A stretch of DNA of 20,379 nucleotides from a virus (IMGVR_UViG_3300035211_000214:1-20379); one strand, 5' to 3'; shown: positions 1,659 to 17,637, counted from the stretch's first letter. Notes: generated from the sequence alone by a model not told the origin. Program-made: numbers and translations.

Positions 1659-1664
1659 AAAAAA

Positions 1665-1698
1665 AAAAATACTACCCTTCTAAGAGGGTAGTATTTTT
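1665..1698. terminator. Bidirectional intrinsic terminator between convergent genes
   Basis: A perfect 13-bp inverted repeat (AAAAATACTACCC at 1665-1677 and its complement at 1686-1698) with an 8-base loop. It is flanked by an A-run on the left and a T-run on the right, so it can end both the rightward helicase transcript and the leftward small-gene transcript. The stop codon of the minus-strand gene (1680-1682) lies in the loop. Confidence 0.9.
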
Positions 1699-1919
1699 CC
1701 TGTAAATTCAAGTCCAATATGCTCTAGCATTTGTGTGTCTGTCATGTAGCCATCTAAATTATCTCCAAACGTACCATTAAATTCGAGCTGGCCGTCTATA
1801 TACATAGTTAGACGACCCCATCTGTATCTGATATATACCTTTTTACCTTCAGCTGTTTTGCCTTCCCACTGCGAGGGGCAAGCTTCGCAGGTTTTACTTA
1901 ATGATATTATTTTAAGCAT
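1680..1919 (-). CDS. Hypothetical protein, 79 aa
   Basis: Last gene of the leftward cluster. Its ATG follows AGGAGGAATAAAG at normal spacing. The product has a CEAC motif near residue 12 and then a strand-rich stretch (KKVYIRYRWGRLTMYIDG) suggesting a small beta-sheet protein that could bind nucleic acid or a partner. I do not recognise the family with certainty. The C-terminus ILPS is encoded by the terminator hairpin itself, which is unusual but common in compact phage genomes. It lies 11 bases from the next gene upstream, so the pair are probably one transcript. Confidence 0.7.
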   Translation of the reverse strand: MLKIISLSKTCEACPSQWEGKTAEGKKVYIRYRWGRLTMYIDGQLEFNGTFGDNLDGYMTDTQMLEHIGLEFTGKILPS

Positions 1920-2673: not shown

Positions 2674-3474
2674 TTATATTTTATAAGTTTTATCTTTACC
2701 ATCTTTATTTATTAAGCAGCCTTTGACTTTTACAAGTCGGTCGCCTATTCTTCTGTAGTGCCCCCGTCTATAATGCTTACATTTAGGTGCGGATGTACGC
2801 GTTATTCCTGTGTGTTCCGGTTGACTTAGATATACAAAAGGAGCAGCATTTATCAAGTTGCTATTTTTAATTTTTTTATTTTTAGTCGGAGTATCATTTC
2901 TTGGTTTTATGCTGCGCTTTTTGTACTTGTATTGTGGTGTATTTAAAAAGACAGATAATTTGATTAATTCATCTACTACAAATTTATTTCTCATAGCTAC
3001 AGTACTCATTTTTTCAAAAGCTTCTTTTTCTATTCCTTCTATGCTGTCCCAAATATCTAAACCTTTGCAATTATGCATATATTTTGGGTGTTTTAAGCAA
3101 AGGTCTACATGTCTATTTTTATATTTTTTCTGTACAATAGATGCGTGTTCGCAGGTTTTCATAAGTGAACAATTATTATAAATTCGTGGATATCTAGTTG
3201 TGTCTAGTAATATAGGAATTATTTGGAGTTCATCAGCCCAGAAATGTATAAAAATATAATATATATTTTCAGCTGATTTTTTTACATATGCAATTACAAA
3301 AGCTATTTCTACTAAGTAATTATGCTCAAAGTATATATTGCTGGGTATTTCTACAGTTTGCAGTTTTTTTGCATTAGTTACTTTTACTTTTATTGCATCT
3401 TCAAAGTTTTCATAAATCCCTTCTTTTTTCTGAATTTCTAAGAATCTATTAATTGAAAGGCTATAGCTGTCCAT
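2674..3474 (-). CDS. Hypothetical Cys/His-containing protein with basic C-terminus
   Basis: A 266-residue protein. The N-terminal ~110 residues look like a folded alpha/beta domain. The middle holds well-spaced Cys and His residues (MKTCEHAS, then HVDLCLKHPKYMHNC) that could bind zinc. A lysine-rich linker at about 183-203 (KYKKRSIKPR and beyond) leads to a C-terminal module reading CKHYRRGHYRR followed by a VKVKGCLIN strand. This RRGH(W/Y)R pattern recurs at the end of uncharacterised phage and plasmid proteins as far as I recall, but I cannot name a function. The ATG at 3474 follows AGGAGGATTATTT. The upstream gap carries the first of the repeated hairpin units. Confidence 0.75.
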   Translation of the reverse strand: MDSYSLSINRFLEIQKKEGIYENFEDAIKVKVTNAKKLQTVEIPSNIYFEHNYLVEIAFVIAYVKKSAENIYYIFIHFWADELQIIPILLDTTRYPRIYNNCSLMKTCEHASIVQKKYKNRHVDLCLKHPKYMHNCKGLDIWDSIEGIEKEAFEKMSTVAMRNKFVVDELIKLSVFLNTPQYKYKKRSIKPRNDTPTKNKKIKNSNLINAAPFVYLSQPEHTGITRTSAPKCKHYRRGHYRRIGDRLVKVKGCLINKDGKDKTYKI

Positions 3475-3504
3475 AAATAATCCTCCTATCTTTTTTGGAA
3501 TAAA

Positions 3505-3533
3505 GGAAGAAGGGTTGTTATACCCATTCTTCC
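3505..3533 (-). repeat. Intergenic hairpin unit 1
   Basis: Read on the minus strand: stem GGAAGAA-t-GGG pairing with CCC-TTCTTCC around a TATAACAA loop. It is preceded by AACACC and followed by an A-rich spacer and ATAGGAGGATT of the next gene. First of at least seven such units. Confidence 0.8.
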
Positions 3534-3539
3534 TGGTGT

Positions 3540-4232
3540 TTATAAGTTTTTAATTTTTTCAATATCTTCATTGTGAAGTTCTTTTTTATTTTCATTTATC
3601 CATGATTCTATATTTGTAATTTTAGATATATAGGTGTGAGTTCCTGCATATTGATCCCATTCTTTTAATAAATAAATATCTTTATATTTACCTATTGATC
3701 CATGACAATTTAGACTTTGCCAAGACCAATTTTGACCATTGAAAGTATCTAATATTATCCAGTCTATTTCACCATCATTAAAATTTATATTGTCTTCATC
3801 GATATCATTTAGTTCTAAGGTTTTGTGATTAGGCCCATCCCAGTAGGTATAAACATAATTTGAATCATAAGTAGATAGACAGCAATATTCAAGACCGTTA
3901 TTATTATATAGCATGAAAGTTTCTTCTTCTTCTATTTCTTCATAACAGTTTACATAATTACATTCATTGTCAAGGTCTAATAAGTCGAATATTCTATTAA
4001 TTATGTCAACGCTGCTTGTATTTGTTTGGTATTCATTATCAATAATTATTAGGTATATTTTATTTATTATGTTTACTTCATTTTCTGTTAGCTCATTTTG
4101 TAGTTTAAAAGTATCGTTACAATCGCCAAAATATACAGCTTTGCTTATATCTTTTTTTGTAAGCAGTATGCAATTTGCATCGTCAGATAATTGTTTAGAT
4201 GTAACCACAATATAATTTTTTAAATTTTCCAT
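3540..4232 (-). CDS. Hypothetical acidic protein, 230 aa
   Basis: An acidic protein rich in Asp, Glu, Asn and Tyr, with aromatic stretches (YVYTYWDGPNHK, GQNWSWQSLNCHG, KEWDQYAGTHTY) of the kind found in small beta-sheet phage proteins. No catalytic motif, signal peptide or membrane segment is visible. The ATG at 4232 has AGGAGGATTT five bases upstream. It is one of seven leftward genes separated by hairpin units and may be an early host-takeover or inhibitor protein, an inference from size, charge and position only. Confidence 0.7.
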   Translation of the reverse strand: MENLKNYIVVTSKQLSDDANCILLTKKDISKAVYFGDCNDTFKLQNELTENEVNIINKIYLIIIDNEYQTNTSSVDIINRIFDLLDLDNECNYVNCYEEIEEEETFMLYNNNGLEYCCLSTYDSNYVYTYWDGPNHKTLELNDIDEDNINFNDGEIDWIILDTFNGQNWSWQSLNCHGSIGKYKDIYLLKEWDQYAGTHTYISKITNIESWINENKKELHNEDIEKIKNL

Positions 4233-4253
4233 AAATCCTCCTATTGCGTTTTA

Positions 4254-4304
4254 AGTCCGCCGACTATTAGATAAAGGAAGAAAGGCTATTATACCCATTC
4301 TTCC
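4254..4304 (-). repeat. Intergenic hairpin unit 2 (double hairpin form)
   Basis: Minus strand: stem GGAAGAA pairing with TTCTTCC (4276-4304), nearly identical to unit 1, followed by a second short hairpin AGTC-GGCG-GACT (4265-4254) and then the AATAGGAGGATTTAT of the next gene. The first stem lies inside the last codons of the upstream gene, which ends EEWV. Unit 5 has the same second hairpin with paired base changes. Confidence 0.78.
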
Positions 4305-4834
4305 TGGTGTTTTATTTGTTCAGTTTCTTCAAAATCTACACTTATATTTTTTCCTTCTTCTGTTCTAAATATTAGCTGCCCGCAATTCTGGTCTATAGTT
4401 AGTAGGTTGCAATTGTAGTACTTTGTGTCAATTTCAACAGTGAATAGATTTTTGTTTTCTTCAATTAAATCAAATATATCACTTACTCTTAAAAATTCTG
4501 TATCCCTGTAGTAATTGAGATATTTGACTTCACCTGTTAATAGTCTTTCAAAGTCTTCAATTACTTTGTCATTGTATTGTTCTTTTATTATGTAATACCT
4601 GTAATTGTGCTCATCTTCTAAGTATGCATAGTTGTTAGTGTCAAACTTGTGTAGTATGCAGCAATTTTGGTACAGCTCTTCTAAAAGCCACATAGTATCG
4701 AGTTTACCAGCTTTATTAAAAAGCGGATCGCCTTGCTTATTGTTATATGCTGTAAATTGCAACATATCAAGACCATTTTCGTCCTTTACTTCTTTGCATT
4801 CAATACCATTTAATTTAATTTCCATTCCTATCAT
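4289..4834 (-). CDS. Hypothetical protein, 181 aa
   Basis: A soluble, acidic 181-residue protein starting MIGMEIKLNG. GGAGGATTATATA supports the ATG at 4834, although the second ATG at 4825 is also possible. Pattern of alternating hydrophobic strands (YAYLEDEHNYRYYIIKE, CGQLIFRTEEGKNISVDFEE) suggests a beta-rich fold. No motif recognised. The last four residues are encoded by the hairpin of intergenic unit 2, so that RNA structure and the protein C-terminus constrain each other. Confidence 0.7.
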   Translation of the reverse strand: MIGMEIKLNGIECKEVKDENGLDMLQFTAYNNKQGDPLFNKAGKLDTMWLLEELYQNCCILHKFDTNNYAYLEDEHNYRYYIIKEQYNDKVIEDFERLLTGEVKYLNYYRDTEFLRVSDIFDLIEENKNLFTVEIDTKYYNCNLLTIDQNCGQLIFRTEEGKNISVDFEETEQIKHQEEWV

Positions 4835-4865
4835 TATATAATCCTCCTATTTGTTTGAGATAGAA

Positions 4866-4893
4866 TAACTAGAGGCTTTTATACCTCTAGTTA
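4866..4893 (-). repeat. Intergenic hairpin unit 3
   Basis: Perfect 10-bp stem TAACTAGAGG/CCTCTAGTTA with an 8-base loop. On the minus strand it is preceded by TAACACC (the TAA is the stop of the upstream gene) and followed by TCTATCTCAAACAAATAGGA. Confidence 0.85.
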
Positions 4894-4901
4894 TTTTGGT
4901 G

Positions 4902-5282
4902 TTACATTGTATGTTTCATCATATTTATTTTGCCTATAGTAGTAAAAAGTTTTTCTTTTATTTCTGCTATTATAATTGCTGTTAATTTAGTATTCATAGG
5001 TATAGATATCCAGTGATTTAGAATATTTATACAAGTTTCCTCTTTTACAAATTTTTTTATTCTACTAGGTTCAAAGTTTTCTAAACATTTAGTATTTTTT
5101 GAGATAGTTAATATTTCCAGTATTTCAATTGCATAGGTTTTACAAAAAGTTTTAGCATCTATATCTTTAATTGTTGATATAATGCTTTTGTGGTATAGTG
5201 TGCAGACATCAATTAGTTGTTTATTTTTGAAGTTATCTAAGTTTAGTATTATTTCATAGGCTATCATTTCATTTAAAGTCAT
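4902..5282 (-). CDS. Hypothetical protein, paralogue of the next gene
   Basis: A 126-residue helical protein starting MTLNEMIAYE. The frame is open to an upstream ATG at 5318, but that start lies before the ribosome binding site. ATAGGAGGATTAAAAGAT directly precedes the ATG at 5282, which I chose. The motif TFCKTYAIEILEIL and the C-terminal region CINILN followed by AEIKEKL match EFCKTYFHEMLEVL and CEKILN followed by EEIKEEL of the gene at 5352-5855, and the N-termini also align (LNEMIAYEIILNLDN with LDDLIANEVYSLLDN). The two are tandem duplicates that have diverged. Function unknown. Confidence 0.72.
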   Translation of the reverse strand: MTLNEMIAYEIILNLDNFKNKQLIDVCTLYHKSIISTIKDIDAKTFCKTYAIEILEILTISKNTKCLENFEPSRIKKFVKEETCINILNHWISIPMNTKLTAIIIAEIKEKLFTTIGKINMMKHTM

Positions 5283-5316
5283 ATCTTTTAATCCTCCTAT
5301 TTGTTTGAGATATAAC

Positions 5317-5342
5317 AACTAAAGGCTTTTATACCTCTAGTT
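5317..5342 (-). repeat. Intergenic hairpin unit 4
   Basis: Minus strand stem AACTAGAGG with CCTTTAGTT (9 pairs, one G-U) and loop TATAAAAG. Its flanks are nearly identical to unit 3: TAACACCAAAAT before, ATATCTCAAACAAATAGGAG after. Confidence 0.82.
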
Positions 5343-5351
5343 ATTTTGGTG

Positions 5352-5855
5352 TTATTCTTCAATATTATATTTTTCTTTCAGCTCTTCTTTAATTTCTTCT
5401 ATCGTATCTTTATTAAGTTCATTGTCCCAATTTTTTTGAATAGAATCACAGTTATTTAGAATTTTCTCACAAGTCTTTAATGCTATTAAAGAAGCAACAT
5501 TTTCTGTATTTTGTATATCTTTGTAAGGTGTGCCGAACTCTTCTTGATAGTCTTCTAAAACTTCCAACATTTCATGGAAATAGGTTTTACAAAATTCAGC
5601 TGCTTGGTATGTACCAATAATATAATAGTCTCTATTATACATTTCATATGCTAGTTCTGGTATTTCTACATCTACATGATTATCTAGCAAGCTATATACT
5701 TCATTTGCGATAAGGTCGTCGAGTTTAGGTTTTTCTGGTATATAGTCTTTTATTTCTGACATAATATCATTTGATATTGTATTAATATCCGTTTCACATA
5801 TGTCATAATGTGTAGCTTTTAATATAGCTTTGATTCTACCTTCTAATTTTTCCAT
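5352..5855 (-). CDS. Hypothetical protein, paralogue of the gene at 4902-5282
   Basis: A 167-residue acidic, mostly helical protein. AGGAGGATTT sits just before the ATG at 5855. Compared with its paralogue it has about 25 extra N-terminal residues and a longer middle (VDVEIPELAYEMYNRDYYII), so it is probably the more complete member. The shared core is an FCKTY-x2-E-x-LE-x-L helix. No enzymatic motif is visible. Duplication in a row of early small genes suggests arms-race type functions, but that is inference. Confidence 0.72.
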   Translation of the reverse strand: MEKLEGRIKAILKATHYDICETDINTISNDIMSEIKDYIPEKPKLDDLIANEVYSLLDNHVDVEIPELAYEMYNRDYYIIGTYQAAEFCKTYFHEMLEVLEDYQEEFGTPYKDIQNTENVASLIALKTCEKILNNCDSIQKNWDNELNKDTIEEIKEELKEKYNIEE

Positions 5856-5876
5856 AAATCCTCCTATTACGCTTTA

Positions 5877-5926
5877 AGCCCGTCGGCTATAAAATAGAAG
5901 CAAGGTAATATTTGACTATTACCCTG
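5877..5926 (-). repeat. Intergenic hairpin unit 5 (double hairpin form)
   Basis: Minus strand: stem CAGGGTAATA with TATTACCTTG (one G-U) and loop GTCAAA (5926-5901), followed by a short hairpin AGCC-GACG-GGCT (5888-5877) and AATAGGAGGATTTAT. The short hairpin corresponds to AGTC-GGCG-GACT in unit 2, with a U-A pair changed to C-G on both sides. Confidence 0.8.
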
Positions 5927-5940
5927 TTTCGGTGTTATTT

Positions 5941-6579
5941 TTATGTATGACTAGACCAATATGGGTTTATCTTAGGTCTTTTTTTCTCTTTGAATCTATT
6001 TGCATATCTTGCTTCATGCCAGTATAGGCCGCCATACATATTACTATCACTGTTATAAATCTTTGTAAAACCTATCATGTCAAAGTCGGGATATAAAGCG
6101 ATCTCTTTTAAAGTACTTTCATTTCTGATCCAGCATTGTATAATACTATTTAATAGCCTAAATTTAGAAGTTTTAACCTTTACTAATTTACTAAATATTC
6201 TATTATCAATATTTACTTTAACTAAAGGTTTTGTATTACATTTAATATAAGTTTTTTTTGTATTTCCCGCAATAAATGCAGCTATTTCACTTGTTTTGAT
6301 TTCGCAATAGTACCATTTTCCTCTAATGTTGTGATTTTCTGCATTGTAGTTGTTTTCTAGGAAATAGAAATTTAGAGCTGTTATATCTTTGTTACAATGT
6401 CTGATAGTAATAAAATTTTGAATATCCTGTTCAATAATATCCTTCATTAAGTTTTCACTAAATACTAGTATACTTTCTTTTTTATGATATCTGTCTTTTA
6501 ATTCTGTAAATACTGTTATTTTTATTAGTTCGTTATCCCTTTTTTCAAGTTTTATAAAGCCTTTTAATCCATTATTCAT
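5941..6579 (-). CDS. Hypothetical protein, 212 aa
   Basis: A basic protein starting MNNGLKGFIKLEK. The open frame extends to an ATG at 6615, but that start falls inside the intergenic hairpin. ATAGGAGGATTAAAAAC immediately precedes the ATG at 6579, so I use that. The sequence alternates strands and basic loops (GKWYYCEIKTSEIAAFIAG, NTKKTYIKCNTKPLVKVNID), and the C-terminus is rich in aromatic and basic residues (GGLYWHEARYANRFKEKKR). I recognise no family. A nucleic-acid contact is conceivable from the charge but unproven. Confidence 0.7.
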   Translation of the reverse strand: MNNGLKGFIKLEKRDNELIKITVFTELKDRYHKKESILVFSENLMKDIIEQDIQNFITIRHCNKDITALNFYFLENNYNAENHNIRGKWYYCEIKTSEIAAFIAGNTKKTYIKCNTKPLVKVNIDNRIFSKLVKVKTSKFRLLNSIIQCWIRNESTLKEIALYPDFDMIGFTKIYNSDSNMYGGLYWHEARYANRFKEKKRPKINPYWSSHT

Positions 6580-6612
6580 GTTTTTAATCCTCCTATTTTT
6601 TTTAAGATAGAA

Positions 6613-6640
6613 CATGTCTATTATTTTACTAATAGACTTG
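6613..6640 (-). repeat. Intergenic hairpin unit 6
   Basis: Minus strand stem CAAGTCTATTA with TAATAGACATG (8 contiguous pairs plus two outer pairs beyond a mismatch) and loop GTAAAA. It is preceded by TAACACCAAA and followed by TTCTATCTTAAAAAAAATAG and GAGGATT. Confidence 0.8.
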
Positions 6641-6647
6641 TTTGGTG

Positions 6648-6941
6648 TTATTTATTATTTAGTTTGTCTAATTGATTGAATAAATCAGGATTAAAGCATC
6701 TAAAACGAATACTTACACTAAGTCTTTCTTTATTACATACAAATAATTTTTCGTCATTGTTGTGCAATACATGCCAACAGTATATTTTATCGTTTTCTAA
6801 ATTATTATAAAACTCTGTATTTTCTATTTTTATATTATGTTTTTCTGTATATAAGTTGTAGAAAGGTGCTATTAATTTGTTATATTTCTCATTGTTTTTA
6901 GTATTTAATGCATAATTTAGATTGTTATAAATATCATTCAT
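6648..6941 (-). CDS. Hypothetical protein, 97 aa
   Basis: An Asn-, Tyr- and Lys-rich 97-residue protein (MNDIYNNLNYALNTKN). The ATG at 6941 is nine bases from GGAGG. The C-terminal half (DKIYCWHVLHNNDEKLFVCNKERLSVSIRFRCF) looks like two or three beta strands. Function unknown. Stop TAA is part of the TAACACC element of unit 6. Confidence 0.68.
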   Translation of the reverse strand: MNDIYNNLNYALNTKNNEKYNKLIAPFYNLYTEKHNIKIENTEFYNNLENDKIYCWHVLHNNDEKLFVCNKERLSVSIRFRCFNPDLFNQLDKLNNK

Positions 6942-6973
6942 TTAATAAATCCTCCTATTTTTTAAGATAGAAC

Positions 6974-6999
6974 AACTAAGAGCTGTTAAACTCTTAGTT
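6974..6999 (-). repeat. Intergenic hairpin unit 7
   Basis: Minus strand perfect 9-bp stem AACTAAGAG/CTCTTAGTT with loop TTTAACAG. It overlaps the stop codon of the 44-aa gene (6994-6996). The usual AACACC is here GACGCC. The 3' flank TTCTATCTTAAAAAATAGGA matches unit 6. Confidence 0.82.
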
Positions 7000-7128
7000 A
7001 TTAGGCGTCATATCGATTATGTCTAAGTTTTCATTGATAGTAAATTCAAAGTTGGTATCAATATCTATATAATATCTATATTCTTTGATGTCATTTTCCC
7101 ATACTTTAGTAGTTTCGTATAGTTTCAT
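6994..7128 (-). CDS. Very small hypothetical protein, 44 aa
   Basis: The ATG at 7126-7128 follows AATAGGAGGGTTAAACA, a strong ribosome binding site. The frame runs 44 codons (MKLYETTKVWENDIKEYRYY, continuing through an acidic tail to MTPNN) to a TAA inside hairpin unit 7. It is acidic and probably one small beta-hairpin plus helix. This is the first gene of the leftward cluster, directly downstream of the structured leader. Support comes from the ribosome binding site, its place in the unit pattern and clean spacing. No family is recognised. Confidence 0.68.
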   Translation of the reverse strand: MKLYETTKVWENDIKEYRYYIDIDTNFEFTINENLDIIDMTPNN

Positions 7129-7159
7129 TGTTTAACCCTCCTATTTATTTAAAAATAAT

Positions 7160-7256
7160 GGTATTGAGCGACTTGAACGCTCGACGATATAAATATCGTA
7201 CTGATAGCCCGGTTTTATCCTCCTATATACCTGATAGCTGTATTTAATACAGCTAT
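7160..7256 (-). ncRNA. Structured leader RNA with tRNA-like part
   Basis: Minus-strand order of hairpins: an 11-bp inverted repeat ATAGCTGTATT/AATACAGCTAT (7256-7234), GATA-9 nt-TATC (7219-7203), ACGATAT/ATATCGT (7199-7184), and GAGCG-TTCAAGT-CGCTC (7182-7166). The last matches a tRNA T-arm in stem length and loop sequence. GGTAT at 7231-7227 can pair with ATACC at 7164-7160, closing a 72-base cloverleaf-like shape. The variable loop is a single base and the anticodon-like loop has six, so it is not a normal tRNA. It contains AGGAGGAT like the intergenic units. Confidence 0.4.
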
Positions 7257-7370
7257 TTAACACCGGTACATTTCCCGGTACCACGGGTATTACATTAATA
7301 GGAGGAGGATATTTTTATACTTATAGCGACGTTCTGTATACACCAATTAAGTGTACCTAGTCATATCTGT

Positions 7371-7391
7371 TAATAGCAGCGTACGCTATTA
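7371..7391. repeat. Inverted repeat in leftward leader
   Basis: TAATAGC and GCTATTA flank a 7-base centre, forming a 7-bp hairpin in the leader RNA between the leftward promoter and the first gene. May contribute to leader folding. Confidence 0.5.
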
Positions 7392-7554
7392 CGACCAAAT
7401 GTAGTCAAGCATACTTTTATGTACCTACTATTTACAAGTGCTATAGTATCTACCAGTATTTAATTTCCAAAGTACCAAATTTGTAAATACATGAAGTAGG
7501 CCAAACAAGTACTGTCGTCGAGGTCAAACGTGAAGTTAGCTATGCTGTGGTTAC

Positions 7555-7583
7555 ATTGTATCACTTTACACACACAAGGTCAA
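7555..7583 (-). promoter_or_regulatory. Leftward sigma-A-type promoter for the small-gene cluster
   Basis: On the minus strand: -35 TTGACC (7583-7578), a 17-base spacer and -10 TACAAT (7560-7555) preceded by TGA, an extended -10. Five of six bases match consensus in each box. Transcription would start near 7548 and give a roughly 420-base structured leader before the 44-aa gene. Confidence 0.65.
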
Positions 7584-8136: not shown

Positions 8137-8250
8137 AGTCATTTAGCCTTTTTAGTCAAAAATTTTATGTAGAGCTATAGTCATTTAGCCTTTTTAGTCA
8201 AAAATTTTGTGTAGAACTTATGACTGAAATTTTGTGTAGAACTTATGACT
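8137..8250 (+). repeat. Direct repeats (two 40-bp copies plus partial copy)
   Basis: A 40-bp unit beginning AGTCATTTAGCCTTTTTAGT occurs at 8137-8176 and 8179-8218 with two mismatches. Its end (AAATTTTGTGTAGAACTTAT plus GACT) recurs at 8227-8250. The inner TTTTTAGTCA also appears inverted as TGACTAAAAA at 8246-8255. Such arrays can be origin iterons or terminase binding sites. Confidence 0.7.
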
Positions 8251-8417
8251 AAAAAAGTACTTCCAAAATTTTCCACAACAGTCTTATAGTCAACTAGTCT
8301 ATCATTACATCTGGCTGGCCGAATAGCATAGATTCCTATACTATTTGACAGTAGCAGATAGGTATTATATAATAAAGCGGTCGGGTGGCTTGGCTCCATT
8401 GTTTAAATATTTTGTTA

Positions 8418-8446
8418 TTGACAGAATATAGTTTTTTAATTATTAT
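8418..8446 (+). promoter_or_regulatory. Rightward promoter 1, consensus sigma-A type
   Basis: Perfect -35 TTGACA (8418-8423), a 17-base spacer and -10 TATTAT (8441-8446). A start near 8453 would place a hairpin terminator about 75 bases downstream, so the transcript may be short unless antiterminated. Confidence 0.75.
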
Positions 8447-11058: not shown

Positions 11059-11928
11059 ATGAAGTCCTATAAAAATCTTGTTTTTTTAGATAATCCATCT
11101 AATATTGAGATATCTAAAAAAATGCTTAAATTAGTTCCAACTAGAGTTGACTGCAAGTCTGAAGAGGTTGAAGTCATTTACACACATTTCAATAGGGTAG
11201 ATTATTCGGTCTATCCAAATCTTAAAGCTGTACTATGTCCATGTAGGGGTGTATCACATTTAGAGGGTGATACAAAGGCAATTATAATTCATCTTGAAGA
11301 ATCTGATGAATTAGAGTTGTTCAACAAGGCTGTTTCCTCGGCTGAGTGGGCTATAAGCAACATGCTTAGATTATTGCAGCATGATGATGAGGACATACGT
11401 GGTAAAAAAATAGGATTTATTGGCTTTAATCGTATGGCTACACAAATTGCCTATAGGTTAAGTAATTTTGGAGTTGATATGCAGTTCTTTGAGCCTGAGT
11501 CAAAGGCTATCAAAAAAGAATTTCTGGCTGCTGTTCCATCTATTAAGCAGCTGACTTCTATTGCACTTTTATGTACTACAAGTGATATCATATTTATGGG
11601 TCTACCAGATATGCCGCAGTATACAGGTTTTGTAGATGAGCTAGCATTTGCTAATATGAGCAAAGTATATTTTATAAATCCATTTAGGTCGAAGTCAGTA
11701 GTAGCTGATGACCTTATAGAGGCTTATGATAATGGGTTTGTGAAGGGATTTGCTATTGATGATTGTTCAGCTTATACATCGGAAGTTAATTATAAGCTGA
11801 CTGTGCTCAATGTTATGCAACCAGCTAATGTAATAGTGAGCCAATATAAAGCTGGAAAAGGCCAACAGTCGAGAATAGCTACAGATATGATAGTATTAGA
11901 TAAGCTAGAAAAATTATTAAAAGATTAG
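11059..11928 (+). CDS. 2-hydroxyacid dehydrogenase-like protein 1, probably non-catalytic
   Basis: A 289-residue protein with the layout of D-isomer-specific 2-hydroxyacid dehydrogenases (phosphoglycerate dehydrogenase type). An N-terminal half-domain (IYTHFNRVDYSVYPNLKAVL) is followed by a Rossmann NAD-binding domain starting GKKIGFIGFNRMATQIAYRL, and then INPFRSKSVV, which holds the conserved arginine. The glycine motif is altered (GFNRMA instead of GxGRIG). The catalytic histidine segment, normally TPHIAG, reads SQYKAG here, and the usual catalytic glutamate region reads DDCSAY. It is probably enzymatically dead. It is a paralogue of the next gene. GAGGAG lies ten bases before the ATG. First gene of the cassette between TerL and portal. 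Confidence 0.78.
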   Translation: MKSYKNLVFLDNPSNIEISKKMLKLVPTRVDCKSEEVEVIYTHFNRVDYSVYPNLKAVLCPCRGVSHLEGDTKAIIIHLEESDELELFNKAVSSAEWAISNMLRLLQHDDEDIRGKKIGFIGFNRMATQIAYRLSNFGVDMQFFEPESKAIKKEFLAAVPSIKQLTSIALLCTTSDIIFMGLPDMPQYTGFVDELAFANMSKVYFINPFRSKSVVADDLIEAYDNGFVKGFAIDDCSAYTSEVNYKLTVLNVMQPANVIVSQYKAGKGQQSRIATDMIVLDKLEKLLKD

Positions 11929-11938
11929 ACTAAGATAG

Positions 11939-11961
11939 ATACACCTTGAAAAGGGGTGTAT
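11939..11961 (+). promoter_or_regulatory. Hairpin covering the ribosome binding site of the second dehydrogenase
   Basis: ATACACC (11939-11945) pairs with GGTGTAT (11955-11961). The loop and 3' arm contain AAGGGG, the ribosome binding site of the ATG at 11964. Folding would lower initiation unless a translating ribosome or a factor opens it. Confidence 0.5.
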
Positions 11962-11963
11962 TT

Positions 11964-12782
11964 ATGATATTTTTAGATCAAGCTACAAATAAAAGAGATT
12001 TTTTAAGAGTAGCTAAAAATCTAGGGGAAAAAGAAGTCATTTATACTCATTTCACTAAAATAAATTTTAGTGATTATGAGAATTTAAAATATGTGATATG
12101 TCCTTGCACAGATATATCACATCTTGGCCCTGTGCCTGAAGGCACTACTTGTATATATTTAATGGACAAGTTAAAGCTATTTGAAAAGGTAGTGTCTTCG
12201 GCTGAATGGGTGGTGCATAATTTATTCAGATTACTAAAACATAATCCAGAAGAGCAGGATGAATTAAGAGGAAAAAGTATTGGGTTTGTAGGATTTGGAC
12301 GGATGATGCAGCGTGTGGCTAAAATGCTGTCATGCTGTGAAGTAGAAATGTATTACTATGATAAAAAAGAGCCGGAATTTTATAGTACAGGTGTTGAAAA
12401 ATGCAGATTTGCTGATAATATATTTGCTACTTGTGATATAGTAATAGTTGGGTTAAGTCTTAATAATAGCACAGCTAATTTTGTCGGCAGCTATCAATTT
12501 AAGTTAATGTCTGAAAAAAGGGCTTATTTTATCAATAATTCTAGATCAGCTATAGTAGATGGTAAGGCTCTTTTAGGAGCTTTAAAAGAAAATTGGTTGC
12601 GTGGATGCGCCCTTGATGTTACTGAAAGTTATGATTATGATTTAAAAAAAGCTTTATTTGATTTTGTATACAAAAAGAGAAATGCAATTATTACTCCACA
12701 CATAGCGGGAAAAGGAGTACAATCTCGGATAAATACGGATAAGATAGTATTAGGCGTTTTTAAGGAGGTGCTTAGTGAATAA
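11964..12782 (+). CDS. 2-hydroxyacid dehydrogenase-like protein 2
   Basis: A 272-residue paralogue of the preceding protein, more conserved: Rossmann motif GKSIGFVGFGRMMQRVAKML (GFGRMM), the arginine segment INNSRSAIVDGKALLGAL, the ALDVTES segment and a proper ITPHIAG histidine motif near the C-terminus. Catalytic residues are therefore plausibly present, though the enzyme is shorter than classical family members (about 310-330 residues) because the N-terminal substrate domain is reduced. I chose the ATG at 11964 rather than the TTG at 11946, since AAGGGGTG lies between them. Its substrate is unknown. It could act on a sugar or keto acid made by the cassette. It overlaps the next gene by eight bases. 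Confidence 0.82.
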   Translation: MIFLDQATNKRDFLRVAKNLGEKEVIYTHFTKINFSDYENLKYVICPCTDISHLGPVPEGTTCIYLMDKLKLFEKVVSSAEWVVHNLFRLLKHNPEEQDELRGKSIGFVGFGRMMQRVAKMLSCCEVEMYYYDKKEPEFYSTGVEKCRFADNIFATCDIVIVGLSLNNSTANFVGSYQFKLMSEKRAYFINNSRSAIVDGKALLGALKENWLRGCALDVTESYDYDLKKALFDFVYKKRNAIITPHIAGKGVQSRINTDKIVLGVFKEVLSE

Positions 12783-13626
12783 TAAAATAGCTATTGTAGG
12801 TAATTGCAAAACTTTAAATGAACAAATGTCTTTTAATACAGATACGGATTATTTTTTTGTAGGACATGGTTTATATAGTAAATGTCTTAGGGATAATAAT
12901 TATTTAGATAATTTTAATTTTGGATTACAGGAAGTAATGCTCTTAGAAATACATAGCAGGGAGAGTAGGCAAGAGAGATATCCTGAGTATATGGAGTGGC
13001 TCAAAACAGTAAAAGTCAGTAAATATATGCAGGAGTATTATTCGGATATAATATTTTCATATAAGTATGAGAGAGAGAAAATATGGGAGTACTTTCAGAA
13101 TAAAGGGGCAACCAGGCGTAACTTTATGGTAAGTTTCTCTTATATGGTGGCATTTGCGATATATAAAGGATATAAAAGAATAGAATTATATAATATAAAT
13201 ATGGTATATGGTGATGATTATATACAGAAGTATAGCTTTGAATATTGGTTGGGTATAGCTATAGGCTGTAATATAGAGGTAGCCTTAACGCCAGAATGTG
13301 ATTTGCTAAGATGCAAAGCATACGGCTATGATGTAGATAATACGCTTGGTGTATATCAGCAAAGAGCATTACAGGCTATACAGCTTAATATTTTAAAGGA
13401 TATAAATTTTGTAATGGCTTATTTAGGTGATTTGGTCAGCAGTATAACAGAAAAAGATGATCCTGTTATTGTAGAACTTTTAGAAATTTTACAGAATAAA
13501 CTAATCAGTGCTAAAAACGGAATTAGCGCTTTATATATAGAGCATCCAAAGTTTATGAAAGAAATTTTGGATAGGCATGGAATAGATATAAAGCCCCAGA
13601 AGTTTGATGAAGGGGATAAAGATTAA
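12775..13626 (+). CDS. GT42 sialyltransferase/MptE-like fold protein 1
   Basis: A 283-residue protein with GTG start (AAGGAGGTG five bases upstream) overlapping the previous gene. The N-terminus KIAIVGNCKTLN resembles the IxGNGPSL nucleotide-sugar loop of bacterial sialyltransferases of family GT42 and of the related MptE/DUF115 fold. The segment MVAFAIYKGYKRIELYNINM matches their ALGYKEIYLSGID signature. The same order of blocks is found in the protein at 14498-15901 (see its entry), so the two are paralogues. The GPS residues are replaced by CKT, so catalysis is uncertain. C-terminal ~90 residues are helical. A role in transferring or recognising the CMP-activated sugar made by neighbours is inference; MptE-like pterin kinase activity is the alternative and looks less likely here. 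Confidence 0.6.
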   Translation: MNNKIAIVGNCKTLNEQMSFNTDTDYFFVGHGLYSKCLRDNNYLDNFNFGLQEVMLLEIHSRESRQERYPEYMEWLKTVKVSKYMQEYYSDIIFSYKYEREKIWEYFQNKGATRRNFMVSFSYMVAFAIYKGYKRIELYNINMVYGDDYIQKYSFEYWLGIAIGCNIEVALTPECDLLRCKAYGYDVDNTLGVYQQRALQAIQLNILKDINFVMAYLGDLVSSITEKDDPVIVELLEILQNKLISAKNGISALYIEHPKFMKEILDRHGIDIKPQKFDEGDKD

Positions 13627-13664
13627 AAGTACGTAGTTTACATAGATAGATATAAGATATCACG

Positions 13665-13718
13665 CCTTATTAGGACAGTGGTTAGCAGGGGATATACCCT
13701 GCTAGCCCATTAATAAGG
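13665..13718 (+). promoter_or_regulatory. Large two-part hairpin over the ribosome binding site of the neuB-like gene
   Basis: Outer stem CCTTATTA (13665-13672) with TAATAAGG (13711-13718), inner stem TAGCAGGG (13683-13690) with CCCTGCTA (13697-13704) and loop GATATA. TGG and CCA add pairs between them. The 3' outer arm includes AAGG of the ribosome binding site AAGGAG at 13715-13720. A candidate translational switch. It lacks the T-run of a terminator. Confidence 0.65.
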
Positions 13719-13730
13719 AGAGTGAGATAA

Positions 13731-14501
13731 GTGACAAAAATCATACTGGATATAGCGAATAACCATTTGGGCAGTAGAGATATATTAGATAAACTAATAA
13801 GCTATCCACCAGCCGGTATGATTGATTATTTAAAGTTCCAATTATATAATCCTGAAAAGCTTAATAAGGATTATCCAAATTATGAAAAGTATAAGGAATC
13901 ATGCAAGAGGTGTTATATAGATTCTGATACTTTAAAACATATCTTAGAAGAGTTTAACTGGGCTGCTTCTAAAAAGCCTATGTTTACGATTTTTTCTAAA
14001 GACAGAATTGAATTTTTACAAGGAGCGCTTGATGAGCTTGATTATTCAGCCACATGGCCTTGTGATTTTGCGCTTAAAATTGCGAGTCCAGACATGAGTA
14101 ATTTTAAGCTTATTGATGCTGTGCAAGAAGCATTTCCTTCAAATCTTTTAGTTATTTCTACAGGTATGCATAGTGAAAATCAAATTGGAGAGTGTATTTC
14201 TCGTTATCCAAATGCTAAGTTTTTATATTGTATTTCTGAATATCCGGTAAGTCCAGAGGATATTGATTGGGGACGAATTTCAGAGCTGGATGGATTTTCC
14301 GATCATACACTTGGTATTGAGGCAGCAAAAAAGTGTATACTTATGGGTGTTGAATACCTGGAGTTTCATTTTACGCTGTCTAAAAATTTGCCTGGGAAGG
14401 ATCATTTTGTATCCAAAGATTTAAAAGATTTAGATAGGCTTGTTAAGTTTAAACAGTCCTTAGTTAATAATGAATTTTATAAAGTGAGGTGGCGTGGGTG
14501 A
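13731..14501 (+). CDS. neuB: NeuB-like sialic/nonulosonic acid synthase, lacking SAF domain
   Basis: A 256-residue TIM-barrel of the NeuB family, which condenses PEP with an N-acetyl sugar (for Neu5Ac, ManNAc). Motifs in order: ILDIANNHLGS (usual form AEIGxNHxG), MIDYLKFQ, FTIFSKD, LKIASPDMSN, LVISTGM, YCISEYPVSPEDIDW, FSDHTLGIE and LEFHFTLSKNLPGKDH. The two metal-binding histidines (SDHT and EFHF) are present. The glutamate of the first motif is aspartate here. Family members are usually near 340 residues, with a C-terminal SAF (antifreeze-like) domain that closes the active site of the partner subunit; this protein ends at the barrel. The GTG start at 13731 has AAGGAG upstream, overlaid by the hairpin at 13665-13718. 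It ends in GTGA overlap with the next gene. Confidence 0.88.
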   Translation: MTKIILDIANNHLGSRDILDKLISYPPAGMIDYLKFQLYNPEKLNKDYPNYEKYKESCKRCYIDSDTLKHILEEFNWAASKKPMFTIFSKDRIEFLQGALDELDYSATWPCDFALKIASPDMSNFKLIDAVQEAFPSNLLVISTGMHSENQIGECISRYPNAKFLYCISEYPVSPEDIDWGRISELDGFSDHTLGIEAAKKCILMGVEYLEFHFTLSKNLPGKDHFVSKDLKDLDRLVKFKQSLVNNEFYKVRWRG

Positions 14502-15901
14502 AAAAGAAAAATGTTGGTCCAGTTAAACCAGTAAGTACAGTAAGGCTTAGTACAAAAGATATGAATAATATTAAAGTAGAAGACAGTAAGCGTAGCGGTC
14601 TTCCTGTTAAAGGCCATCCTGTAGAGATTAAAGAGGGATATATAAGTAAAGCTACACCTATTATTGGTACTACTAAACCTGAAAATGATATAAATGAAAT
14701 AGGGGATATGGTTATAAAAAAATTTATAGATAATCTTACTCCAAAAAAGCTTGAAGTTTTAAAAAATATGCTTAAAGTTGGTTCTAAGGATCAGACAGCT
14801 GAAGCACAAAAAGTATTTGATGATATTAAATTCATTAAAAAAAATGATAAGTGTTGTATTATAGGATTTGCTCCAAGCTGGGACATTGCTCCTTATAGTG
14901 AAAAGGGAATTGATTTTTGGGGGATTAATGAGCTGTATCTTAATCTTCAAAAGGCTAAGATTACTACGCCTTTTGCCGCATGGTTTGAGGTACACAATAT
15001 AGAGCAGTCTCCAAGTAAGCAAAAACAGGAGCATCAAAAGTTTTTACAGACTTGTAAAATTCCGTTAGTTACTCAGCGGCATTGGGATAAGTACCCTTCG
15101 TCTATAGCTTATCCAGTACAGTATATAGTTAATTATTTTAATATGAACTTTGTAGTAGACGAAAAGAATACTGGTTTTTCTGATTATTCTAATCAGATAT
15201 CTTGGATGATAGCTCTTGCTATAGTTCTTGGATATAAAGAGATAATGGTATATGGTGTAGATATGGCTCAGCAGTCAGAATATGCATTTCAAAGGGCCTC
15301 ATGTCAGTTCTTTTTAGGATATGCTACTGGTAGTGGTATAAAAGTAAGAATACCAAAAGCTTGTGAGTTATTAAAAGCTGGTAGGCTTTATGGTTTTGAG
15401 TCTGATAATGCTAATAGATTCCGTAAGAAAGATAGAATTGCTGGATGTGATGAGTCAGTTCAGCACATTAAAGTTAGAAATGCTGAAATAGAGTTTTATA
15501 AGGAGTTTTTAGACAAGAAATTAGAAAAGGATTTAATTCTTGTGGATGCTGAACTTGCAGCAATGGAAAAGGATATAGCTGAGCTTAATACTATGATAAC
15601 TGTAGCAGATAATATACTTAATTTTTTAAATACTATGCCAGCTGATTTAGCTCAGATAGATAAGTCTAAAGTTAAGCTCTTAAATGCTAATACTGCTGGA
15701 AGAGATAAAGCTATTAAGGATATAGCTAAGATTAAAGCTGATATAAAAACTTTGAAAAAACAGAGAGAGAAACTTGAAGCAGATAAATATATTAATATTA
15801 AACTTCTTGAGGAAGAGTTTGAAGCTAATAGGTTGTCTCTTGAAACTTTGCAAGGTTCAATTCATGAATGTAAGCATGACTTGAATAATAATTTGGTGTA
15901 A
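14498..15901 (+). CDS. GT42 sialyltransferase/MptE-like protein 2 with coiled-coil tail
   Basis: A 467-residue protein. I take the GTG at 14498 (overlapping TGA of the neuB-like gene) because GAGGTGG is five bases upstream; a GTG at 14489 is possible. Residues 1-110 are a basic linker and a helical region. Residues about 115-300 form a sialyltransferase-like domain: CCIIGFAPSWDIAPYSEKGI, FWGINELY, FAAWFEVHNIE and MIALAIVLGYKEIMVYGVDM resemble the IxGNGPSL, FRCNQFY and ALGYKEIYLSGID blocks of GT42 enzymes. From about residue 325 to the end the protein is long coiled coil. It is a paralogue of the gene at 12775. It sits between neuB- and neuC-like genes, so it is the best candidate for using the CMP-sugar. 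The coiled coil may anchor it to a virion protein. The acceptor is unknown. Confidence 0.68.
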   Translation: MKKKNVGPVKPVSTVRLSTKDMNNIKVEDSKRSGLPVKGHPVEIKEGYISKATPIIGTTKPENDINEIGDMVIKKFIDNLTPKKLEVLKNMLKVGSKDQTAEAQKVFDDIKFIKKNDKCCIIGFAPSWDIAPYSEKGIDFWGINELYLNLQKAKITTPFAAWFEVHNIEQSPSKQKQEHQKFLQTCKIPLVTQRHWDKYPSSIAYPVQYIVNYFNMNFVVDEKNTGFSDYSNQISWMIALAIVLGYKEIMVYGVDMAQQSEYAFQRASCQFFLGYATGSGIKVRIPKACELLKAGRLYGFESDNANRFRKKDRIAGCDESVQHIKVRNAEIEFYKEFLDKKLEKDLILVDAELAAMEKDIAELNTMITVADNILNFLNTMPADLAQIDKSKVKLLNANTAGRDKAIKDIAKIKADIKTLKKQREKLEADKYINIKLLEEEFEANRLSLETLQGSIHECKHDLNNNLV

Positions 15902-15902
15902 T

Positions 15903-16952
15903 ATGGTTCTGGTTTTCATCGGCTCCAGGGCCAATTATGGTAGGCTAAAGGCAGTAATAGACCAGCTTATATCTAATAGTATTGATTTTGGGATAGTATT
16001 AGGATCGTATGATATTTCTAAGGAGTATCAGCAGTATGTAGTATTTAGAGTCGACAATCTTCTGTATAAGGATACTACATATAACATGGTAAGCTCTATG
16101 GGATTGGTGGCCCTTAATGTAACAAGCTTTTTATCAAATTTAAACAGATTACCTAAACTTGCTATTGTGCATGGTGATAGATTTGAAAATTTAGGCTTTG
16201 CAATAGCTTGTAGTTATAATAATATTAAGCTTTTACATACTGAGGGGGGCGAGTTCTCAGGGAATATTGATAATAAAATAAGGATGGCTATTACTGCTCT
16301 AGCTGATATACATTGCGTAACTACGCAGAATGCCGCAGAGCATCTAATTAAAGCAGGTATAGATGAGTCGAAGGTTTTTAATACTGGCTCTCCAGCAATT
16401 GATGAGGTTAAAAACTTAAATTTACCTGTTTTAAAGTATCCTTCAGATATTATAGCAGTTTTGTATAATCCATGTGAAGAGGATGATTTTGATGAATTTT
16501 TTAAAGCAATTTTAAAGCTTAGTGCAAAATATAAAATAGTCTGGATTAATCCTAATATTGATCCAGGTTATAAGATGATATGTAAGCAAGTGCATGCAAA
16601 TAAACAAATTGAGTTTATGAAGGGCTTATCAGTAGTTGCGTACTTTAAGGTATTAAATATGTGCAAGATGCTGATAGGCAATACATCTTCAGGAATAAAA
16701 GAATGTGCTTATCTCGGTATACCCTACATAATGGTAGGTATAAGGCAAAATAATAGAGAAATTGATGAAAATGTTTTAGTAAGGACAGGAAGGTTAGACG
16801 AAATATTATATAGAGTTAATTTTGCTGAGAGATATATAGAGAAATATGGAGGTCGTATTAAATATAATGGCCTTTTCGGCTGGGGTGATGCAGCTGAAAA
16901 AATAGTTAAAGTAGTAAGGGGGGTTTTAGATGATAGCATTGATTCCATTTAG
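15903..16952 (+). CDS. neuC: NeuC-like UDP-GlcNAc 2-epimerase (hydrolysing)
   Basis: A 349-residue GT-B-fold enzyme of the UDP-GlcNAc 2-epimerase family, hydrolysing subgroup, which yields ManNAc (or a related sugar) and UDP. Key segments: FIGSRANYGRLKAVI (usual TGTRADYGLL), LAIVHGDRFENLGFAIA, LLHTEGGEFSGNIDNKIRMA with the EGGE-SG-ID signature typical of NeuC rather than WecB, VFNTGSPAIDE, and GNTSSGIKECAYLGIPYIMV with the GIRQ region binding UDP. Length is close to the family's 370-390 residues. The ATG lies one base after the previous stop. GGTG upstream is a weak ribosome binding site, so coupled translation is likely. It overlaps the next gene by 23 bases. Confidence 0.9.
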   Translation: MVLVFIGSRANYGRLKAVIDQLISNSIDFGIVLGSYDISKEYQQYVVFRVDNLLYKDTTYNMVSSMGLVALNVTSFLSNLNRLPKLAIVHGDRFENLGFAIACSYNNIKLLHTEGGEFSGNIDNKIRMAITALADIHCVTTQNAAEHLIKAGIDESKVFNTGSPAIDEVKNLNLPVLKYPSDIIAVLYNPCEEDDFDEFFKAILKLSAKYKIVWINPNIDPGYKMICKQVHANKQIEFMKGLSVVAYFKVLNMCKMLIGNTSSGIKECAYLGIPYIMVGIRQNNREIDENVLVRTGRLDEILYRVNFAERYIEKYGGRIKYNGLFGWGDAAEKIVKVVRGVLDDSIDSI

Positions 16953-17637
16953 AAGTGGTAGTGAAAGGGTTCCAGATAAGTCTATAAGGATTTTTGATAG
17001 AAATGGTGTTAAGAAGCCATTATTTTTGCATACTGTAAGGCTGGCAGTTGAATGTTTTGAGTTATTTGATGCTATAATTATTACAACAGATTATAGTCTA
17101 GGCTTACTTCATAGCTTAAGTTACAATACTGTAAGCCAGTGCCAGGTTGTGGTAAGGGACAAGGTTAGCTCAGACCAGCCAGCTTCTGAGTATATAAAGG
17201 ATGTACTGGATTCAGGTAAGTCAAGTGATGAGCAGGATGTGTGCTTATTACAGATAACATGCCCGTTAAGGGCAAAGGCAGATATATACCAGGCTGCGGA
17301 TATATATTATATGAATAAGGATAAATGTAAAACTCTTGTTTCAGTAACTGAAGTAGATAGTATTAAAAAATTTTATATGCCATTTGGAAATACAGTATCT
17401 AGTTTATATCAGGGTGGTGTATTATCTTGCGATGAGAGTGATGGTAGCGGAGATAAGCTGTATCGCAGAAATAGCAGTATTTATATTTTCAATGTTGGAT
17501 ATTTTAGAGAAAATAATAGTATATTTAGTCCTAAGCCAAGCTATTATGAAATGCCAGCACATAGGAGTGTTGATATAAATACTGAAGAAGATTTTAAAAT
17601 GGCAGAGGCTTTATCTAAGGTGTGTGGTGTTATATGA
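16930..17637 (+). CDS. neuA: NeuA-like CMP-nonulosonate (CMP-sialic acid) synthetase
   Basis: A 235-residue cytidylyltransferase that activates a nonulosonic acid with CTP to CMP-sugar. Motifs: ALIPFRSGSERVPDKSIR (family IPARSGSKxxxxKN), IITTDY, LLQITCPLRAKADI (usual LQPTSPLR), KLYRRNSSIYIFN (usual YRRNGAIY) and HRSVDINTEEDF at the C-terminus with the two metal-ligand acids. All landmarks of NeuA/LegF/PseF proteins are in place and length is normal. The proline-serine pair of LQPTSPLR is changed to I-C. The ATG at 16930 has AAGGGGGG upstream. It ends with ATGA overlapping the next gene, keeping it in the operon. Confidence 0.92.
   Translation: MIALIPFRSGSERVPDKSIRIFDRNGVKKPLFLHTVRLAVECFELFDAIIITTDYSLGLLHSLSYNTVSQCQVVVRDKVSSDQPASEYIKDVLDSGKSSDEQDVCLLQITCPLRAKADIYQAADIYYMNKDKCKTLVSVTEVDSIKKFYMPFGNTVSSLYQGGVLSCDESDGSGDKLYRRNSSIYIFNVGYFRENNSIFSPKPSYYEMPAHRSVDINTEEDFKMAEALSKVCGVI

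Follow-up and report, generated by a model that had tools for sequence, protein, structure and literature searches.

Accessory genes of phages turn over rapidly, and it is an open question how a newcomer obtains fitting control. In Gram-positive bacteria and their phages, 5′ mRNA stabilisers combine a hairpin with a strong ribosome site behind it, and are located at 5′ ends. The SAS and extended SAS elements of Cluster K mycobacteriophages are gene-start repeats with an AGGAG motif, some of them placed after inverted repeats, and are found at non-structural genes only (PMC3203893). Four SAS phages also display a single copy in reverse orientation that is not obviously at a gene start; for the extended SAS, the authors saw little support for mRNA hairpins and proposed DNA-binding proteins (PMC3203893). 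The C4 antisense RNA of P1/P7 has two separate short complementary segments, b′ over the ribosome site and a′ upstream (PMC5320573), and is encoded in the operon of its targets (PMC8198154).

The window analysed here is the whole of a 20,379-nt stretch of an IMG/VR phage contig (IMGVR_UViG_3300035211_000214:1-20379). It contains an operon of eleven minus-strand genes that runs leftward from 7128 to 1680, between a promoter candidate and a terminator (Table 1). Genes 1–8 are consecutive and are parted by seven repeat units, all on the minus strand. Genes 9–11 (starts at 2661, 2476 and 1919) are without a unit and have plain ribosome sites. From the position of the operon we infer that its genes are early genes. 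The relative used for comparison is a 33.8-kb phage contig (IMGVR_UViG_3300036975_000123); a second contig (G002) is identical to it over the 15,395 bases compared. At the position aligned with the operon promoter, the relative has TAGACA-17-TATGAT.

Table 1. Features of the operon and its leader in the window (positions counted from the first nucleotide of the window).
Feature	Position	Strand	Remarks
Candidate operon promoter	7555..7583	-	TTGACC-17-TACAAT, TG before second hexamer
Structured noncoding leader	7129..7548	-	~420 nt; 5′ end placed from the promoter
Site b′, AUAUCCUCCUCCUAUU	7297..7312	-	complementary to ribosome site of every unit; unchanged between the two phages
Leader hairpin GGUAC..GUACC	7265..7282	-	between b′ and a′; predicted to fold inside leader-unit complex
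Site a′, GGUGUU	7259..7264	-	complementary to AACACC; followed by A (GGUGUUA)
SD0, AUAGGAGGAU	7217..7226	-	ribosome-like site in leader, no start codon behind it; rival partner for b′
tRNA-like element	7160..7231	-	GGUAU/AUACC ends; arm GAGCG-UUCAAGU-CGCUC
Gene 1	6994..7128	-	44 aa; leader upstream
Unit 1	6949..7009	-	GACGCC, 14-bp hairpin, ribosome site
Gene 2	6648..6941	-	97 aa; behind unit 1
Unit 2	6587..6649	-	simple unit
Gene 3	5941..6579	-	212 aa; behind unit 2
Unit 3	5858..5936	-	second small hairpin AGCC-GACG-GGCU before ribosome site
Gene 4	5352..5855	-	167 aa; phrog_10208 (family of unknown function); behind unit 3
Unit 4	5291..5353	-	simple unit
Gene 5	4902..5282	-	126 aa; paralogue of gene 4; behind unit 4
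Unit 5	4841..4903	-	simple unit
Gene 6	4289..4834	-	181 aa; 93% identical in relative; behind unit 5
Unit 6	4235..4311	-	second small hairpin AGUC-GGCG-GACU
Gene 7	3540..4232	-	230 aa; behind unit 6
Unit 7	3480..3540	-	simple unit
Gene 8	2674..3474	-	266 aa; behind unit 7
Intrinsic terminator, operon end	1662..1701	-	17 pairs, then run of T

Among the operon proteins, a PHROG family was found for gene 4 only, and the AlphaFold model of this protein has a pLDDT of 63. PADLOC gave no match to the operon proteins, Pfam gave none that was convincing in those scanned, and a confident Pfam or PHROG match was not found for gene 1. Elsewhere on the window, the noncoding region upstream of the late genes contains a tandem 37-bp repeat (8137-8215, 97% identity), and two near-perfect sigma-70 promoters on the plus strand (8345-8373 and 8418-8446, with 12 and 11 of 12 positions) also precede these genes. 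Between terminase and portal (11059-17637, plus strand) are genes for NeuB-like, UDP-GlcNAc 2-epimerase-like and cytidylyltransferase-like enzymes together with two 2-hydroxyacid dehydrogenases; this set is of the sugar (sialic-acid) type, lies inside the structural region and is largely common to the relative. The relative also encodes an SPFH/Band 7 protein (L136:11317-12216, minus strand).

Each unit displays the order AACACC, hairpin, spacer and ATAGGAGGAT. All seven units described in the first-pass annotation were found on the minus strand where it had placed them. Its claim that AACACC is part of every unit holds exactly for six of the seven, but unit 1 has GACGCC; in units 3 and 6 a second small hairpin takes the place of the TCTATCTC spacer. 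The stems, previously given as 8–11 bp, measure 10–14 bp. In unit 6 the stop codon of the upstream gene sits in the hairpin loop. Units 4 and 5 differ little from each other, with 88% identity over 92 nt. A search of the rest of the genome for the unit had also been proposed. ATAGGAGGAT is present eight times in the window, always on the minus strand; seven of these copies are in units and the eighth is in the operon leader (7226-7217).

The hairpins were compared with dinucleotide shuffles in the 15 units of the window and the relative. Folding energies have z values of -2.3 to -8.5, and at most 5 of 200 shuffles fold as well as the real unit in any of the 15. The summed fold is -215.6 kcal/mol for the mRNA strand vs -169.8 kcal/mol for the complement, with the mRNA strand folding more strongly in 10 of the 15 units. 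An alignment of the ten simple units shows double-sided changes in 9 of 13 stem pairs, and the five units with a second hairpin show them in 10 of 16 pairs, although the units are related copies and these counts are not of independent events. The covariation score of the ten simple units is 0.540, against 0.270 +/- 0.038 in shuffles, none of 500 reaching 0.540; slid controls score far lower. Selection on RNA structure had been suggested in the first-pass annotation, and the double-sided changes, the covariation and the mRNA-strand bias back this suggestion. The conclusion that the unit hairpins are RNA structures under selection is thus supported by the sequence comparison.

The leader of the operon contains an antisense copy of the unit, which the first-pass annotation missed. 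It represents one reverse-complement copy, in which both conserved flanks of the unit have a complementary counterpart in the correct antiparallel order. Read on the plus strand, the leader displays AACACC, a hairpin and AATAGGAGGAGGAT, i.e. the parts of a unit, with no gene after it. The minus strand of the window has a single GGTGTT, which lies in the leader; the plus strand has a single AACACC, at this very position. A covariance model made from mRNA-strand units only recovers, on the plus strand, the reversed copy in each of the two leaders, though with weak scores (E-values of 0.005 and 0.64).

The last 390 nt of the leader are about 90% identical to the relative. Genes 4–6 are similarly close (88–90%), and the overall conservation of the leader is therefore not remarkable. 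The pattern of conservation within it is as follows: AUAUCCUCCUCCUAUU is unchanged, the next 32 nt around the leader hairpin (7265-7296) have 17 differences with the hairpin kept, and GGUGUUAAAUAGCU is again unchanged. No position differs between the two phages at site b′ (0 of 17) or at site a′ (0 of 14). The leader folds with a z value of -3.9 vs shuffles, and the opposite strand is nearly equal (z -3.7). The leader matches none of the Rfam structured classes at the thresholds used, and the plasmids searched gave no match to it.

A 207-nt noncoding stretch of the leader (7314-7520, minus strand), the first part of these 390 nt, has only 5 differences to the relative and is more conserved than other leader parts. 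Two hairpins that exclude each other, CCCG-UGGUAC-CGGG and GGUAC-CGGGAAAU-GUACC, can be drawn at 7265-7296 (minus strand) in both phages; they could constitute a switch. The tRNA-like element has a canonical T-loop sequence (UUCAAGU), and its arm stem is altered on both sides in the relative; neither Rfam nor ARAGORN gave a match to it.

Cofolding of leader and unit predicts pairing at two sites in all 15 units of the two phages. In the predicted complexes AACACC is paired with GGUGUU, and the ribosome site with leader CCUCCUAUU. All six a′ bases are paired in 15 of 15 units; all nine b′ bases are paired in 14, and three of nine in the remaining one, a unit of the relative. Both hairpins are intact in the three predicted complexes that were inspected. 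The energy gain of leader plus unit is -15.7 to -25.1 kcal/mol for the 15 units, compared with a mean of -7.8 kcal/mol for 32 control starts of late or other genes, the strongest of which gives -16.7 kcal/mol, so that the two ranges overlap slightly. The b′ core followed by a′ was never seen in 20,000 shuffles of the leader. This evidence comes from two phage genomes whose units are not independent of each other.

The ribosome sites of these genes were also compared with 16S rRNA, for which a generic Bacillota 3′ end was used. All but one of the genes behind units or the leader match b′ over 9–11 contiguous nt and 16S rRNA over 6 nt; the exception is the last unit gene of the relative, which matches each over 8 nt. 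In contrast, several late genes match 16S rRNA better than the leader. The departures GACGCC, GATAGGAGGA and AATAGGAGGG, found in units and in the site of the first gene, are A-to-G changes in which G-U pairs with the leader are kept. AAAAGGAGGA in the relative is a departure without kept G-U pairing to the leader.

These predictions, with the complementarity itself, suggest with moderate confidence that the units are targets for the antisense element in the leader of the same transcript, which would hide ribosome sites throughout the operon. In the proposed mechanism, the unit presents a short hairpin with two single-stranded flanks, AACACC (site a) and AAUAGGAGGA (site b, which holds the ribosome-binding site). 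The leader would be its mirror image, with AUAUCCUCCUCCUAUU (b′), a hairpin and GGUGUUA (a′). If a pairs with a′ and b with b′, a junction of two intermolecular helices would form, leaving both hairpins intact and the ribosome site hidden. Repression is the expected direction of control because the ribosome site would be hidden. One leader, acting in cis or released in trans, could lower translation of all tagged genes together. Release, perhaps at the tRNA-like element, is speculation. A gene inserted with a unit would join the regulon. When SD0 holds b′ instead, the leader could act as a switch. The full proposal is put forward tentatively, i.e. that one antisense copy in the leader controls every tagged gene, that newcomers join by way of a unit, and that the leader switches between its own site and those of the genes. 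If it is true, a tag consisting of a ribosome site and a shared antisense target would be a simple answer to the control of newly gained genes.

The main doubt concerns SD0. In the predicted ensemble of the isolated leader, b′ pairs mostly with SD0 in the window, and with SD0 and the ribosome site of the first gene in the relative. If b′ served SD0 only, its match to the units would be a by-product of shared ribosome-site sequence, and a′ alone would be independent support. Site a′ is 6–7 nt in length, and its 6-mer appears somewhere in 11% of shuffled ~420-nt leaders (p about 0.11). A chance origin of a′ is made less likely by its place, order and spacing and by its unchanged state in the relative. 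Destroying AACACC in the predicted complex costs 5.9-7.8 kcal/mol in the relative but 0.7-2.8 kcal/mol in the window, where the free leader fragment has a′ engaged in pairing beforehand, which accounts for the small cost.

An alternative is that each unit is a self-contained cassette, in which the hairpin shields the ribosome site against the upstream gene or forms a protective 5′ end after mRNA cleavage, and that the anti-site of the leader pairs with SD0 only. In Gram-positive bacteria a 5′ hairpin together with a strong ribosome site stabilises mRNA. Three observations are in accordance with this alternative: in all 15 units a hairpin immediately precedes a strong ribosome site, selection for the mRNA-strand fold has retained it, and b′ is predicted to pair locally with SD0. 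However, it gives no explanation for the invariant AACACC, for a leader GGUGUU in the right order and at the right distance, or for the departure of the unit ribosome sites from 16S complementarity toward the leader, and we regard it as rather unlikely.

Control of the tagged genes by a phage or host protein that binds the hairpins, and so acts on their translation together, is improbable. The loops are alike and A-rich (GUAAAA, GUAUAAAA, GUAUAACA, UUUAACA) while the stems are different, but the loops range in size from 4 to 9 nt and are less conserved than the flanks. The antisense copy in the leader is a simpler partner than a binding protein.

The first-pass annotation had raised the possibility of partial transcription terminators that set an expression gradient. 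This is very unlikely: the combination of a G+C-rich stem and a T run is not displayed by the units, and although one (5926-5901) passes a lenient scan, the other six fail it, tails being mixed and without T runs, 2.1 chance matches are expected in the region, and the true end of the operon has an obvious terminator. RNA processing had been raised as well; RNase III cleaves within double-stranded stems, and the 10–14-bp stems of the units would be its putative substrates. That the units act as DNA, whether as protein-binding palindromes or as sites of recombination, in place of RNA structures is hardly credible: they lie at borders of gene exchange between the two phages, but their stem variants include G-U pairs of the mRNA strand and the complement folds more weakly in sum, which would not be expected of DNA palindromes.

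The relative has the same operon and arrangement, with eight units. Operon genes 4–8 and the tenth gene have counterparts in it with 32–94% identity. The first three genes encode different proteins in the two phages, and the operon of the relative has an extra inserted gene of 50 aa. Each start of the swapped and added genes in the relative is behind a unit or the leader; thus the units stay while the genes change. Genes 4 and 5 are neighbouring old paralogues. The swap of three genes, the added gene and the paralogue pair are in agreement with the earlier suggestion that genes were added or duplicated as cassettes with their own unit.

Viral contigs were scanned by protein and by pattern, and yielded this one relative (in its two contigs) beyond a 7.8-kb viral fragment with 99.9% identity to the window. 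The bacterial and archaeal genomes scanned contain no relative, and among the records listed for phages further away, whose terminases are related, none has a set of such units. Matches to Enterococcus phages (E-value about 0.4) were dismissed, the similarity being one of promoter-like sequences; isolated matches to the pattern in other contigs were attributed to chance, and inspection led us to discard integron attC sites as a candidate.

With respect to the known systems, the 5′ mRNA stabilisers are alike in having a hairpin and a ribosome site, but the units are intergenic, repeated and accompanied by a complementary leader. SAS is the nearest described repeat pattern, and differs in both structure and sequence. 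The SAS repeat is GGGATAGGAGCCC and that of the units is AATAGGAGGAT, which is outside the SAS sequence definition. Extended SAS have 17-bp inverted repeats with little support as mRNA hairpins, whereas the stems of the units show covariation and a summed stability that is greater for the mRNA strand. The reversed copy sits here in the leader of the operon.

The logic of leader and unit appears to be like that of the C4 RNA of P1, with no detectable homology: the C4 family (RF01695) gave no match in the window at the gathering threshold, nor in the leader at E-values up to 10. As in C4 RNA, the leader has two segments, facing the ribosome site and a site upstream, by prediction in all 15 units. 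The layout read from the sequence, with a candidate promoter, the leader, eight genes and a terminator, would fit an antisense segment that lies upstream of its targets on one transcript. C4 RNA is processed by RNase P to an RNA of roughly 77 nt; the leader here has a tRNA-like element at 7231-7160. The two differ in that one antisense copy here faces seven or eight targets, each with a hairpin of its own that separates sites a and b, and in that this phage uses Gram-positive-type ribosome sites. If the proposed pairing takes place, the operon would represent a multi-target counterpart, in a phage with ribosome sites of that type, of a mechanism best known from P1.
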